From Natrialba taiwanensis DSM 12281 (GTDB taxonomy: Archaea; Halobacteriota; Halobacteria; Halobacteriales; Natrialbaceae), in NCBI RefSeq assembly GCF_000337595.1, contig NZ_AOIL01000048.1, forward strand, positions 1-44,522: a DNA stretch of 44,522 nucleotides, read 5' to 3'. The position numbers and the translations under genes were made by a program. A model generated the notes under the pieces. That model was given only the letters and a program-made list of their open reading frames with translations, ran no database searches and was not told the origin of the DNA. Position 1 is the first letter of the stretch. Each line of letters begins with the position of its first letter. Shown here piece after piece: positions 2,336 to 29,749 of the stretch.

Positions 2336-3028
2336 CTATCCTGACCCGGTCCCACGAGCGCCATCGTTCTCCGAAGTAGTCGCAGTAATATCGGTCACCG
2401 TCTCGTTGACCGCATCGACCGCAACCGAATACGTCGTTTGCTGTCCTTCCTCTTGGAGAACCACTGTTGCAGTTGTCGTATCGAGATTTGGCGGTGTCGT
2501 TTGCCGGATTCGGATTTCGTTTTCGCTGGACGCGGTGACTTCGAACGCTGTCTGGTCGCTTTCTGCGGATCGGGGTTCTTCCCCTTCTCTGTACGACAGA
2601 TCGAGTGCCACCCGCGTCGAGACATCATATTCGCTACTGTTGGCAATGAGTGACTGAACGGTCTCGTTGGTTCGAACGATTTCTTGTACGTGCGTTTCGT
2701 TCGAGATCGCTGGTTCGTCTTCGAATGCGGACTGGTTGACCGGTGGCGACTCGACCGTAATCTCGATGCCACCGTCGTTGCGGGCAATTCGGAGCCGTTC
2801 GTCTTTCTCGTCCGACATCGTGTATATATCGACTGGATCGGTGAACGGTTCCGACTCCAGAGAGACGGCTTCGTCTGTCACGTGTACTTCTGCTGCAGGG
2901 GTTCTATCGGCCGTTCCATCGATACCTGCGCTTGAGAGGACGAGAGCGAAAACCATCCCGACACAGATCAAACTCAGTATCCGAGCTGAACGGCCTCGAA
3001 GGATCGACTGAATCGTATTTCTGTCCAT
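2336..3028 (-). CDS. Secreted protein of unknown function
   Basis: A 230-residue protein with a basic N-terminus, then a hydrophobic stretch (about residues 16-35, LSLICVGMVFALVLSS) that reads as a signal peptide or N-terminal anchor. The rest is acidic, rich in Thr/Ser/Glu/Asn, with several NxT/NxS sites (NQS, NET, NSS) that could be N-glycosylated. No enzyme motif is seen; the composition suggests a beta-rich extracellular domain. The ORF can be extended to a TTG at 3088, but the ATG at 3028 is preferred because a TATA-like TTAAATAG lies at 3077-3084, placing transcription start between the two. It is divergent from the membrane-anchored winged-helix gene at 3257, with a shared 228-base promoter region, which suggests a linked function. 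Confidence 0.75.
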   Translation of the reverse strand: MDRNTIQSILRGRSARILSLICVGMVFALVLSSAGIDGTADRTPAAEVHVTDEAVSLESEPFTDPVDIYTMSDEKDERLRIARNDGGIEITVESPPVNQSAFEDEPAISNETHVQEIVRTNETVQSLIANSSEYDVSTRVALDLSYREGEEPRSAESDQTAFEVTASSENEIRIRQTTPPNLDTTTATVVLQEEGQQTTYSVAVDAVNETVTDITATTSENDGARGTGSG

Positions 3029-3076
3029 TATCTGCCGGTCCGCTCTCGAAGCGTGATCTGTATCTCTGTGCGAAAT

Positions 3077-3084
3077 ACTATTTA
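3077..3084 (-). promoter_or_regulatory. TATA box of the secreted-protein gene
   Basis: On the minus strand this reads TTAAATAG, about 50 bases before the ATG at 3028. It would put transcription start near 3052, inside the longer ORF, which is why the TTG start at 3088 is rejected. Confidence 0.5.
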
Positions 3085-3217
3085 ACAATTTATTTCACAC
3101 GCGTTTCACTCGTGTTTCGTGGCTGTTTCAGATCGTTTCATTCCCGCTATGGATGCAGTATGTCGCTTCTATCCGCGATATTTGCCTATCAAAACGCGAC
3201 AACCGTGAAATCCTCAA

Positions 3218-3226
3218 TCTTATAAT
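3218..3226 (+). promoter_or_regulatory. TATA box of the membrane winged-helix gene
   Basis: The run CTTATAATC lies about 35 bases before the ATG at 3257, in the AT-rich divergent region 3029-3256. It suggests a short leader. No perfect palindrome long enough to call an operator was found between the two divergent genes. Confidence 0.45.
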
Positions 3227-3256
3227 CATAATCGACTCAACCATCAGTCACGAGCA

Positions 3257-3823
3257 ATGAAGACACGTCTCCGCCTCGGTTCCCGATTGGTTGCGGCGAC
3301 CCTCGTTGTCGCAGCGTTCTTACTGTGTCTGCAGTTATTACATCCGTCACCAGTCGTCGTTTCCGTTAGCGGATCGAGTTCGGAGACGACACGCCTTCCC
3401 GGCTTTTTTGCGTATCGTGATGTCGGTGTCGTCCTCGTTACGTCGTTCGTCCTCGGTGCATGCAGTACATACCTCTTTCTCGACTGGCGGGCAGAAACGG
3501 AGCGCTCTCCAGCGGAAGACGACGCGGAGCCGACTTCAAAACAATTGGAAGTTGAAGACGAACCCGGTTCAGTAACGATATCCGACGAACTCCTCGAACG
3601 ACGACACCGTGAGTGGGACACGATCGCACCGAAGCTTTCTCAAGCGGAACGAGACATCTACGAGCAGATCCTCGGCGCTGATGGCGTCCTTGAGCAGCGT
3701 CTCATCGTTGCGCAGACTGACCACTCAAAAGCGACTGTCAGCCGGAAACTCGACCGCCTGGAAGGGAAAGATCTCGTCGAAAGACGGCGTCGAGGGATGG
3801 GAAAGGTCGTGTTCCTTCGCTGA
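3257..3823 (+). CDS. Membrane-anchored winged-helix DNA-binding protein
   Basis: A 188-residue protein with two predicted membrane helices (about residues 11-28 and 55-75), a short outer loop between them, an acidic cytoplasmic linker (79-115), and a C-terminal winged helix (about 125-188). In the last part, a helix-turn-helix with HSKATVSRKLDRLEGKDLV is followed by a basic wing RRRRGMGKVVFLR. This is the MarR-like fold found at the C-terminus of haloarchaeal membrane regulators. With both helices in the membrane, N- and C-termini are cytoplasmic, so the DNA-binding domain would be tethered to the inner face. It is divergent from a secreted-protein gene, and another secreted-protein gene follows on the same strand. 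Signal, target and whether it is released by proteolysis are unknown. Confidence 0.8.
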   Translation: MKTRLRLGSRLVAATLVVAAFLLCLQLLHPSPVVVSVSGSSSETTRLPGFFAYRDVGVVLVTSFVLGACSTYLFLDWRAETERSPAEDDAEPTSKQLEVEDEPGSVTISDELLERRHREWDTIAPKLSQAERDIYEQILGADGVLEQRLIVAQTDHSKATVSRKLDRLEGKDLVERRRRGMGKVVFLR

Positions 3824-4027
3824 GTCCGACATCGTAACAGGTGTAACAGCTGTTTCAGTTGCTCTGCACGAGTTTCGGAACGGCTTTCCAACTATTGTTT
3901 ATATGTTGTTTCTTCCAAGACTTATTTGAGGTCGGTCCGGAACTGACGAGAGTGGCAGTAGGTGACGAGATCTGGTCACGGGTTGCTGCGGTACCGGTTC
4001 GGGTCGATCTCAAGTATATTGACAACC

Positions 4028-4681
4028 ATGAAACGAAATCGACGCTCGCTGATGCTCGCGCTAGTCACGATGATGACGCTCGCGCTCAGCGTTGGCGGTG
4101 TTGTTGCGAGCGATAGTATCGACGCCGACGTTTCGATCGTCGGTGCGGACGATGCCAAGACGGGATCCGATGACGAGTTCACGACCGAGCGAGTCGACGA
4201 GACCGACTTCGAGGAAACGTCGATATCGGTCATCGATGCTGATACGAACGCGTCCACTGATGAATCAATAGCCATCACGACCGACGACGAAACGACGGTC
4301 CTCGAACCACCAACGAACGATACCCGGACGATCGCAGCCGACGAGTTCGACGTGACAACCGTCGACGGAGACGGTGCGGACGACGCCGGTCCGACTGCAA
4401 CGTACGACATTGACGGGACGATCGATCCGGGTGAGGGGACCGCATACGGTCCGCACTCGCTGGCTGCAGGTGAGTCCCTGACAGTGGACGTCTCGTGGGA
4501 CGCCGCCGATTCCGATCTCTGTCTCGGTCTCATGACTCCCGATGGCGAGATCGTCTGCGCCGAAGAGTCGAACGGACAGGGCTCTGTTACCGTCGAGGTC
4601 GAGGAGTCCGGTGACTACTACGCGTTCGTCGGCAACGAGGGACCGTACACGGCCGCATATACGGGTCACTCTCGGGTCTGA
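4028..4681 (+). CDS. Secreted acidic protein with PPC-like C-terminal domain
   Basis: A 217-residue protein starting at the ATG at 4028. It has a classic signal peptide: basic MKRNRR, a hydrophobic core to about residue 25, and cleavage probably near VVAS. A long Thr/Asp-rich linker follows (about 30-130). The C-terminal 90 residues (TYDIDGTIDPGEGTAYGP onward) look like a beta-sandwich of the pre-peptidase C-terminal type, with the usual end pattern of a GDYYAFV strand. No catalytic domain precedes it, so it is a stand-alone surface protein. An in-frame start 66 bases upstream (3962) would bury the signal peptide and is rejected. It follows the membrane winged-helix gene by about 200 bases. 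PPC-like is a pattern judgement. Confidence 0.7.
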   Translation: MKRNRRSLMLALVTMMTLALSVGGVVASDSIDADVSIVGADDAKTGSDDEFTTERVDETDFEETSISVIDADTNASTDESIAITTDDETTVLEPPTNDTRTIAADEFDVTTVDGDGADDAGPTATYDIDGTIDPGEGTAYGPHSLAAGESLTVDVSWDAADSDLCLGLMTPDGEIVCAEESNGQGSVTVEVEESGDYYAFVGNEGPYTAAYTGHSRV

Positions 4682-28486: not shown

Positions 28487-29749
28487 TCAGTCCGCACGCT
28501 GTGTCTGTGAGAGTCCGACGGCACCGCTCTTCTGGACGATATCGAACGCGGTCATGACGTCGGACCGCGAGATCAGGCCGACGAGATCGTCGCCTTCCTG
28601 TGGCTCTCTCGACTCCGTGACGGTCTCCGTGGAGCCATCGGTGCCGAGGGGCTGGGTTTGGGTTCGTGTCGGCGACTGTCGTTCGACGACGAGGAGGCGT
28701 CCGATATCGTGCTCTCGCATCCGTTCGATTGCGGTCATCGCGTCCGAGTCTGCCGAGATGGTCTGGAGATCCGTCGTCATGATCTCCTCGACCGTGTAGG
28801 CGTCGCGCTCGACGGGTTTGATCTCGCGGGCGTCCGAGAGCGTCACGAGGCCGACCAGCCGTCCGTTATCGAATCCGCTCGTGTCGATGACCGGATAGCC
28901 CGTGTGCCGTTCGCTGAACATCCGCTGCACCAACTCTGCGACCGATGTCTCCGGCGATACGGTGTGAAGATTGCCTGCGGGGGTCATGATGTCGGCGACG
29001 GTCACGTCCTGAAAGGCGGCTTTCATCGTCACCTGCTGGGCCTCGCTCGAGGCCGCGATGTAGACGAAGAAGGCGATCCCGATGAGGATGATATTGAACT
29101 GAAGCAGACCGAACAGCCCCATCAGAACCGCGAGGAACTTCCCGATGCTCGCGGCCTGCTGGGTCGCTTGCGCGTACGGTCTCGACCGGGCGAGAAACGC
29201 CCGCAACACGCGTCCGCCGTCCATCGGGAACGCCGGCAACATGTTGAACGCGGCGAGTGCGATATTCAGAATTGCAAGATACGCAAGAACGAACCGCGCG
29301 CCGTCGAATCCGACCGGCGTCACGGTAAAGAGCACAAAGGAGCCGACGCCGACGAGAACCGAGACGATCGGCCCGGCGATCGAGATTGCGAACTCCTGTC
29401 GCCAGTCCTCGGGCATCTCGGTAAACGATGCAATCCCGCCGAACAGCCAGAGCGTAATCGAGTCGATCGGAAATCCGTACCGCCGGGCCGTCAGCGAGTG
29501 CCCGAGTTCGTGTAACACGACGCCCACGAACAACCCGAGCGCCGCTGCGAGACCAAAGAGCCACGGATTCACCCCGGACGTGATGTACCCGATGTCGATT
29601 CCGGCACCGAGGGTTGTGTTCAGGATGTCCGAAACATCACTGATCTGGGACCCGATGAGGTACGCAAACAGCGGGAGCACCAGCAAGAACGTGATATCGA
29701 GTTTGATCGGTATTCCGAAGAGAGAGCCGATCCGGAAACTCCTCAACAT
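28487..29749 (-). CDS. S2P-type membrane metalloprotease with CBS domains
   Basis: A 420-residue site-2-protease-family protein. The zinc motif HELGH is at residues 80-84 (VVLHELGHSLTARRYG), and the third ligand Asp is in NMLPAFPMDGGRVLRAFL (Asp177), both in membrane helices. Two CBS domains follow (about 240-300 and 310-400), which in other proteins bind adenosyl nucleotides and may gate activity. A Thr/Pro/Gln-rich insert breaks the second CBS. The start is ATG 29749; a long upstream extension of the frame lacks a reason to be coding, and a TATA-like TCTTTAAGG lies about 35 bases before. It is divergent from L10e. Substrate unknown. Confidence 0.9.
   Translation of the reverse strand: MLRSFRIGSLFGIPIKLDITFLLVLPLFAYLIGSQISDVSDILNTTLGAGIDIGYITSGVNPWLFGLAAALGLFVGVVLHELGHSLTARRYGFPIDSITLWLFGGIASFTEMPEDWRQEFAISIAGPIVSVLVGVGSFVLFTVTPVGFDGARFVLAYLAILNIALAAFNMLPAFPMDGGRVLRAFLARSRPYAQATQQAASIGKFLAVLMGLFGLLQFNIILIGIAFFVYIAASSEAQQVTMKAAFQDVTVADIMTPAGNLHTVSPETSVAELVQRMFSERHTGYPVIDTSGFDNGRLVGLVTLSDAREIKPVERDAYTVEEIMTTDLQTISADSDAMTAIERMREHDIGRLLVVERQSPTRTQTQPLGTDGSTETVTESREPQEGDDLVGLISRSDVMTAFDIVQKSGAVGLSQTQRAD

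Follow-up and report, generated by a model that had tools for sequence, protein, structure and literature searches.

A proposed autoregulated surface-sensing cassette built around a membrane-tethered winged-helix regulator in Halobacteria

Three genes of Natrialba taiwanensis DSM 12281, designated S, W and T, probably constitute a self-contained, autoregulated surface-sensing cassette, in which the membrane-tethered winged-helix regulator W would act on arrays of GAAAC half-sites, the surface protein S would serve as the sensor, and no kinase would be involved. They lie within a stretch of 44,522 nucleotides, referred to here as the window. The arrangement is best read as one in which a surface protein would signal, with no kinase, to a DNA-binding domain held at the membrane. 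To our knowledge, the kinase-free transfer of outside signals to genes is poorly known in archaea, and ArnR is the main membrane-bound case that has been studied. No publication on the winged-helix family DUF7343 or on such a cassette was found in the open-access literature, and as far as that literature goes the cassette is previously undescribed. As a class-wide family for which operator, partner and target set can all be predicted, it makes the question of kinase-free signaling in archaea directly testable.

Organization, conservation and mobility of the cassette

All three open reading frames were present when the window was checked, and their coordinates and those of associated features are collected in Table 1. 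The initial annotation had described S as a signal-peptide protein transcribed divergently from a two-helix membrane protein with a winged helix, and had noted a second secreted protein behind the latter. These descriptions were borne out by the open reading frame and N-terminal hydrophobic segment of S (a cleaved signal or an anchor), by agreement of hydropathy and Pfam matches for W, and by the open reading frame and signal peptide of T. Relative to Natrialba chahannaoensis, dN/dS was ~0.41 for S, 0.24 for W and 0.18 for T, compared with 0.06 for a neighboring helicase, indicating that all three genes are coding and fast-evolving. The G+C content of S and W (55–56%) and of the spacer between them (44%) can be set against 63.5% for the window. 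W is 99% identical to the W protein of Natrialba aegyptia, its nearest named relative, and the genome holding the window is 4.6 Mb in size.

Table 1. Features of the cassette and its promoter regions, in positions of the window.
Feature	Position	Strand	Basis
S, proposed co-sensor of W; surface protein of 230 aa, membrane-anchored (or secreted)	2336..3028	-	ORF; S-family profile match 2366-3010, E 9e-41; sequon enrichment in S family
S TATA-like box, TTAAATA on coding strand, just downstream of the array in the S reading direction	3079..3085	-	Sequence reading
Divergent S-W intergenic region, both promoters inside, 44% GC	3029..3256	.	Sequence composition
Predicted W operator array: ATTTCA 3092; GTTTC 3103, 3114, 3125, 3135 (steps 11, 11, 11, 10)	3092..3140	.	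Spacer reading; R1 profile match 3097-3135
W promoter region: TGAAAT half-site-like 3206-3211; TATA-like TTATAAT 3220-3226	3206..3226	+	Sequence reading
W, membrane-tethered winged-helix regulator, 188 aa	3257..3823	+	ORF; Pfam; homolog alignment
Membrane part of W: TM1 (residues 11-29) and TM2 (residues 56-74), joined by an outside loop of ~26 residues	3287..3478	+	Hydropathy; 23-homolog alignment; helices 7-28 and 53-82 in low-confidence model
Winged-helix domain of W (DUF7343 / MarR_2), its most conserved portion	3650..3817	+	Pfam; homolog alignment
T promoter element: half-sites 3852, 3872, 3884, 3908; TATA-like TTTATAT 3898-3904	3852..3913	+	R1 profile match 3863-3918, E 2.5e-8 (one of 33 training rows)
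T, secreted protein, 217 aa, signal peptide; fast-evolving third member	4028..4681	+	ORF; relatives adjoin W in other genomes

Searches with W in 125 genomes of the family and with a 23-sequence W profile in 391 genomes of the class yielded ~80 full-length W loci, spread over most of the sampled families. Genes were called on 79 of these loci taken with their surroundings, and the presence of S was counted by profile searches of raw open reading frames, because codon bias in this low-GC unit led gene calling to misplace the S and T starts at some loci. In 74 of the 79 loci, the distance from W to S did not exceed 1.5 kb. S lay slightly beyond this distance, past a D gene (described below), in L070, and no recognizable S was found near W in L075, L163, L164 and L165. 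Among the 74, S and W were on opposite strands in 49 and on the same strand in 25, with an overlap of 4 bases in four loci; the gap in the divergent layout was mostly 121–150 bp. Conversely, the S profile identified 78 places in the 391 genomes, and a comparison of coordinates with the list of W loci left three without an adjacent W. The W-less places were two truncated copies of S, one next to a TnpB-like transposase gene (G081:C2, L080) and the other in G407 (L198), and a marginal match in G037.

The 78 loci with informative flanks fell into ~49 distinct, unrelated flanking contexts, and the linkage is therefore not a by-product of a frozen neighborhood. Whether the pair is conserved together, the neighborhood comparison that the initial annotation had suggested, was thus answered in the affirmative. 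Because the S-W-T layout recurs across the class Halobacteria, it represents more than chance. That the genes are neighbors by accident, with no common function, is contradicted by their linkage and by a shared promoter element that persists across the class despite changing surroundings, and the probability of this explanation is negligible. The cassette appears to move independently as a unit and is mobile-looking. Related cassettes are carried by Haloferax mediterranei, Haloarcula hispanica, Halomicrobium mukohataei and Halobellus limi, where the present annotation names only a MarR family (transcriptional) regulator and hypothetical proteins; the first two are laboratory species, in which W corresponds to E6P09_RS15895 (H. 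mediterranei) and HAH_RS19035 (H. hispanica).

Two local arrangements were also observed. On a 216-kb contig (L080:4892-6712), the truncated, W-less S follows directly downstream of the TnpB-like transposase gene, which suggests that mobile elements capture pieces of the cassette or that such pieces decay. In genus g15, a PspA/IM30 gene is found directly downstream of W at a gap of 67–188 bp (L059:7069-7902, + strand, and the same place in L060-L063), possibly as an envelope stress link or as local context only; PspA was set aside as a functional partner and taken as local context because it is confined to this one lineage (L059-L063).

The tethered regulator and its extracytoplasmic partners

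Hydropathy analysis revealed two hydrophobic segments in the N-terminal part of W, and its winged helix (approximately residues 132–187) scored above the Pfam cut-offs for both DUF7343 (PF24034; 30.8 vs. 27.6 bits) and MarR_2 (28.2 vs. 27 bits). An alignment of 23 homologs established the domain order TM-TM-linker-winged helix, with a mean pairwise identity of 66% in the winged helix, 43–46% in the transmembrane and loop regions, and 20% in the linker. An AlphaFold2 model from three sequences was weak (pLDDT 50). The outer loop, at only ~26 residues, offers a small surface for a partner. No match to a W homolog was found in phage records. A second, more distant membrane winged-helix protein lacking an S neighbor is present in this genome (L167; G000:C70:120359-120826) and in a close relative (L166).

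The orientation of these proteins in the membrane was read from N-glycosylation sequons. Relative to shuffled expectation, sequons are enriched 3.4-fold in S, 3.0-fold in T and 3.3-fold in the D proteins, occur at 1.06 times expectation in soluble neighbor proteins, and are depleted (0.37 times) in the part of W that follows the second transmembrane segment. On the basis of these ratios, S, T and D are predicted to lie outside the cell and the W winged helix inside; sequons in the outer loop of W, present in just 15 of the 79 loci, add little to the topology case.

S contains a single N-terminal hydrophobic segment after an Arg-rich start, which may be cleaved or may stay as an anchor, and which looks anchor-like by family consensus (e.g., LLVLVGLAVIGVGLAGIGTALG). 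Neither S nor T of the window belonged to an NCBIfam family or passed a family cut-off. Profile comparison of the S, T and D sets gave no convincing Pfam match, with one weak fn3 and one weak PPC match among the window proteins, and no convincing PDB relative was found for them by sequence; a PDB match to a capsid-protein fusion (E 7e-4) covers 30 residues and was dismissed as chance. A PepSY-like character of S, T and D is an impression by eye only, and the strand-rich AlphaFold2 model of S, from three sequences, is unreliable (pLDDT 37). The role of S as a sensor is thus proposed from its position and its linkage to W only. Within the homolog sets, the mean distance was 0.70 for S vs. 0.53 for W, and the W and S distances are correlated (r 0.80; Mantel 0/2000), a value uncorrected for the species tree.

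The third member of the cassette varies. In the divergent layout, the secreted protein T is encoded downstream of W. The alternative layout has a longer secreted protein, D (~300–520 aa, with a start like MQRDYR), encoded divergently from the S-W pair; many other haloarchaea carry D in place of T. Profile comparisons identified a domain common to S and T (hhalign E 1.3e-9) and to T and D (E 8.9e-10), with a weaker relation between S and D. The Natrialba T is a variant in which this domain is unrecognizable and a PPC-like C-terminal end is found instead (PF04151 at only E 0.36, below the cut-off). T is a part of the unit and not merely a downstream neighbor.

The promoter element and the proposed mechanism

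The DNA supplies the strongest new evidence and reinforces the initial interpretation. Side-by-side comparison of the S-W spacers revealed repeated TGAAAC/GTTTCA half-sites. The combined density of GAAAC and GTTTC per kb was 24 in S-W, 21 in D-S and 9.9 in W-T spacers, as opposed to 3.2–4.4 in the remaining intergenic regions at these loci, a set that may hold a few misassigned cassette spacers, which could only weaken the contrast. Half-sites of the same orientation are spaced preferentially at 11 and 22 bp, equivalent to one and two helical turns, and pairs at 11 bp numbered 64 in S-W and 47 in D-S spacers. A signature of (G/A)TTTC-N19-(C/G/A)TTTC around a TATA-like box was found in 17 of 46 S promoters, 19 of 51 T promoters and 14 of 22 D promoters, and in none of 425 other intergenic regions; the exact 24-bp signature is shared by some, but not all, of the S and T promoters. 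In the window, the spacing is retained in the T promoter between CTTTC at 3884 and GTTTC at 3908. The array predicted to be the W target falls within the S-W intergenic region, which the initial annotation had proposed for ChIP of W. A triple GTTTC array appeared in none of 100 shuffles of the window, and three GTTTC elements at gaps of 4–7 bp were found in the whole genome only in this array and at three places with 12-bp steps.

The specificity of the element was assessed with a 72-bp sequence-only profile (R1) built from 33 elements, whose E-values are rough because calibration was shortened and which may miss degenerate targets because its first pass scores the best 150 candidates per genome. 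In the N. taiwanensis genome, R1 produced two matches only at E ≤ 10, both in the cassette; the T promoter match is a training row and the match within the S-W array is outside training. Among 23 further W-bearing genomes, every match below E 0.01 mapped to the cassette by coordinates in 21, so that, with the N. taiwanensis genome included, matches at this level were confined to the cassette in 22 of 24. Cassette-only matches include those in G372, G149, G221, G131, G204, G076 and G157, whose own elements are outside the training rows, some having close relatives inside. W-bearing G084 contained no R1 match, and G337 was an exception, with two weak matches (E 0.0097 and 0.04), both off the cassette. 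Single off-cassette matches (E 0.01–0.05) occurred in a few other genomes (e.g., G062 and G227), and weaker matches up to E 1 were found off the cassette at chance expectation. No match below E 0.01 was obtained in 14 genomes of the family that lack W. The deep-branching family f11 (L164, L199) has a similar D/S/W layout without the GAAAC-array consensus, and its W recognition helix reads SKSHVSRKLD in place of SKATVSRTLD, hinting that the operator may have changed.

The element accompanies W and is tied to the promoters of S, W and T/D. Since no other DNA-binding protein is encoded in the cassette, W is the likely binder of the arrays. A different, soluble regulator might occupy them, with W acting elsewhere or posttranscriptionally, and many haloarchaeal winged-helix proteins do exist; such a regulator is improbable in view of the absence of the element from the 14 W-less genomes, its persistence with W through the ~49 contexts, and the position of W as the sole DNA-binding protein common to the cassette. 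In the mechanism that we favor, W would be held in the membrane by its two helices with the C-terminal winged helix inside, and S, on the outer face, would act as a sensor or controller, probably touching the short outer loop and the membrane helices of W. While anchored beside its own gene, W would line up along one face of the DNA as a series of cooperatively bound molecules, on half-sites one helical turn apart. With respect to the TATA boxes of S, W and T (or D), the arrays occupy intervening and upstream positions, and W would switch, most likely activate, S, itself and the secreted T or D. In archaea, binding sites upstream of TATA boxes usually go with activation, and a positive loop, which would be switched by S, is favored because the arrays sit upstream of TATA-like boxes. 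That W is the array binder, that it contacts S directly, that it activates in preference to repressing, and what kind of signal is read are inferences.

Tethered regulators are sometimes activated by proteolytic release, and the initial annotation had pointed to an S2P-type protease gene 25 kb away whose product could free the DNA-binding domain. This gene is real and encodes an M50 protease with two CBS domains (28487-29749, - strand), which showed no apparent connection with the cassette. That such a protease cuts W, allowing a soluble winged helix to reach DNA, is nevertheless quite improbable: of the 79 loci, only 2 have a plausible M50-like multi-transmembrane gene at a distance of up to five genes from W (a further one has a HELAH protein of doubtful kind), there is no indication that W is cleaved, and the operator arrays adjoin the W gene, where a tethered factor could presumably reach them without release. 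The initial interpretation is supported in part, its protease element having found no support.

A serious rival, possible though on balance unlikely, concerns what is sensed. W and S might measure the cassette's own secreted product and not the environment, with T or D docking on S at the cell surface to shut off or boost its own production, in the manner of surface-protein homeostasis or a self-produced cue. The domain relations among S, T and D favor this feedback, as does the fact that almost every genome tested has the element only at the cassette, which leaves S, W and T/D as the only visible targets. Against it, the Natrialba T has its PPC-like end in place of the shared domain, and the profile may miss degenerate targets outside the cassette. 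A more far-reaching view can be advanced tentatively and with less than even confidence: the cassette may be an independently evolved archaeal co-component unit, with a regulon that is essentially the cassette itself, in which membrane-bound regulator and surface sensor would switch on an exchangeable secreted protein that carries the sensor's domain and is perhaps its ligand, and it may serve as a plug-in surface-recognition module moving between genomes.

Comparison with known systems

Transmembrane transcription regulators are defined as proteins that combine a DNA-binding domain and at least one transmembrane region (PMC10269533), a definition that covers W; the available part of that survey makes no mention of Halobacteria, of MarR-type members or of partner genes of the S kind. 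Archaeal parallels are ArnR and ArnR1 of Sulfolobus, which, as far as the accessible portion of the source describes them, are likewise membrane-bound winged-helix regulators with two transmembrane helices (PMC6396743). ArnR, which is linked to the archaellum and pili, is described there as having an N-terminal HTH followed by HAMP/sensor regions and C-terminal transmembrane segments. W does not have this layout: the order is reversed, with the winged helix at the C-terminus, and a partner is added, whereas no dedicated surface partner of ArnR is described in the same portion of that source.

Long haloarchaeal membrane proteins of the DUF7343 family resemble W in their transmembrane segment and C-terminal winged helix but differ in that the same chain also contains an extensive extracellular portion bearing Ca-binding-type repeats. 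Three examples (L201:2197-3396, - strand; L207:2344-3708, - strand; L212:1589-2770, + strand) have a signal peptide, Ca-binding-type repeats (DGDGLSN...), a transmembrane segment and a DUF7343-like C-terminal winged helix, and are apparently single-chain surface-sensing regulators. An outer domain like S was sought in the long proteins with the S, T and D profiles and was not found. W and S together look like a split form of these proteins, as ToxR/ToxS relates to CadC.

The cassette also resembles the co-component systems ToxR/ToxS, VtrA/VtrC, TcpP/TcpH and PsaE/PsaF, which, like W and S, pair a tethered winged-helix regulator with a fast-evolving, membrane-anchored extracytoplasmic partner and employ no kinase (PMC9214523). 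As in those systems, the tethered regulator and an adjacent extracytoplasmic partner gene are conserved together, and the partner S evolves rapidly, both by dN/dS relative to the neighboring gene and by its distance relative to W. Co-component regulators consist of an N-terminal CadC-like HTH, one transmembrane segment and a C-terminal periplasmic domain, and form heterodimers with partners of lipocalin-like fold (PMC9214523). W does not share this architecture and instead combines a C-terminal MarR/DUF7343 winged helix with two transmembrane helices and a short outer loop; in the cassette the partner is frequently encoded divergently, the unit includes a third gene for a secreted protein, and no sequence relation to the co-component systems was found. 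Since both the regulator architecture and the HTH family differ, the best explanation is that the cassette would work like a co-component system without being a member of that group, having been built from unrelated parts.
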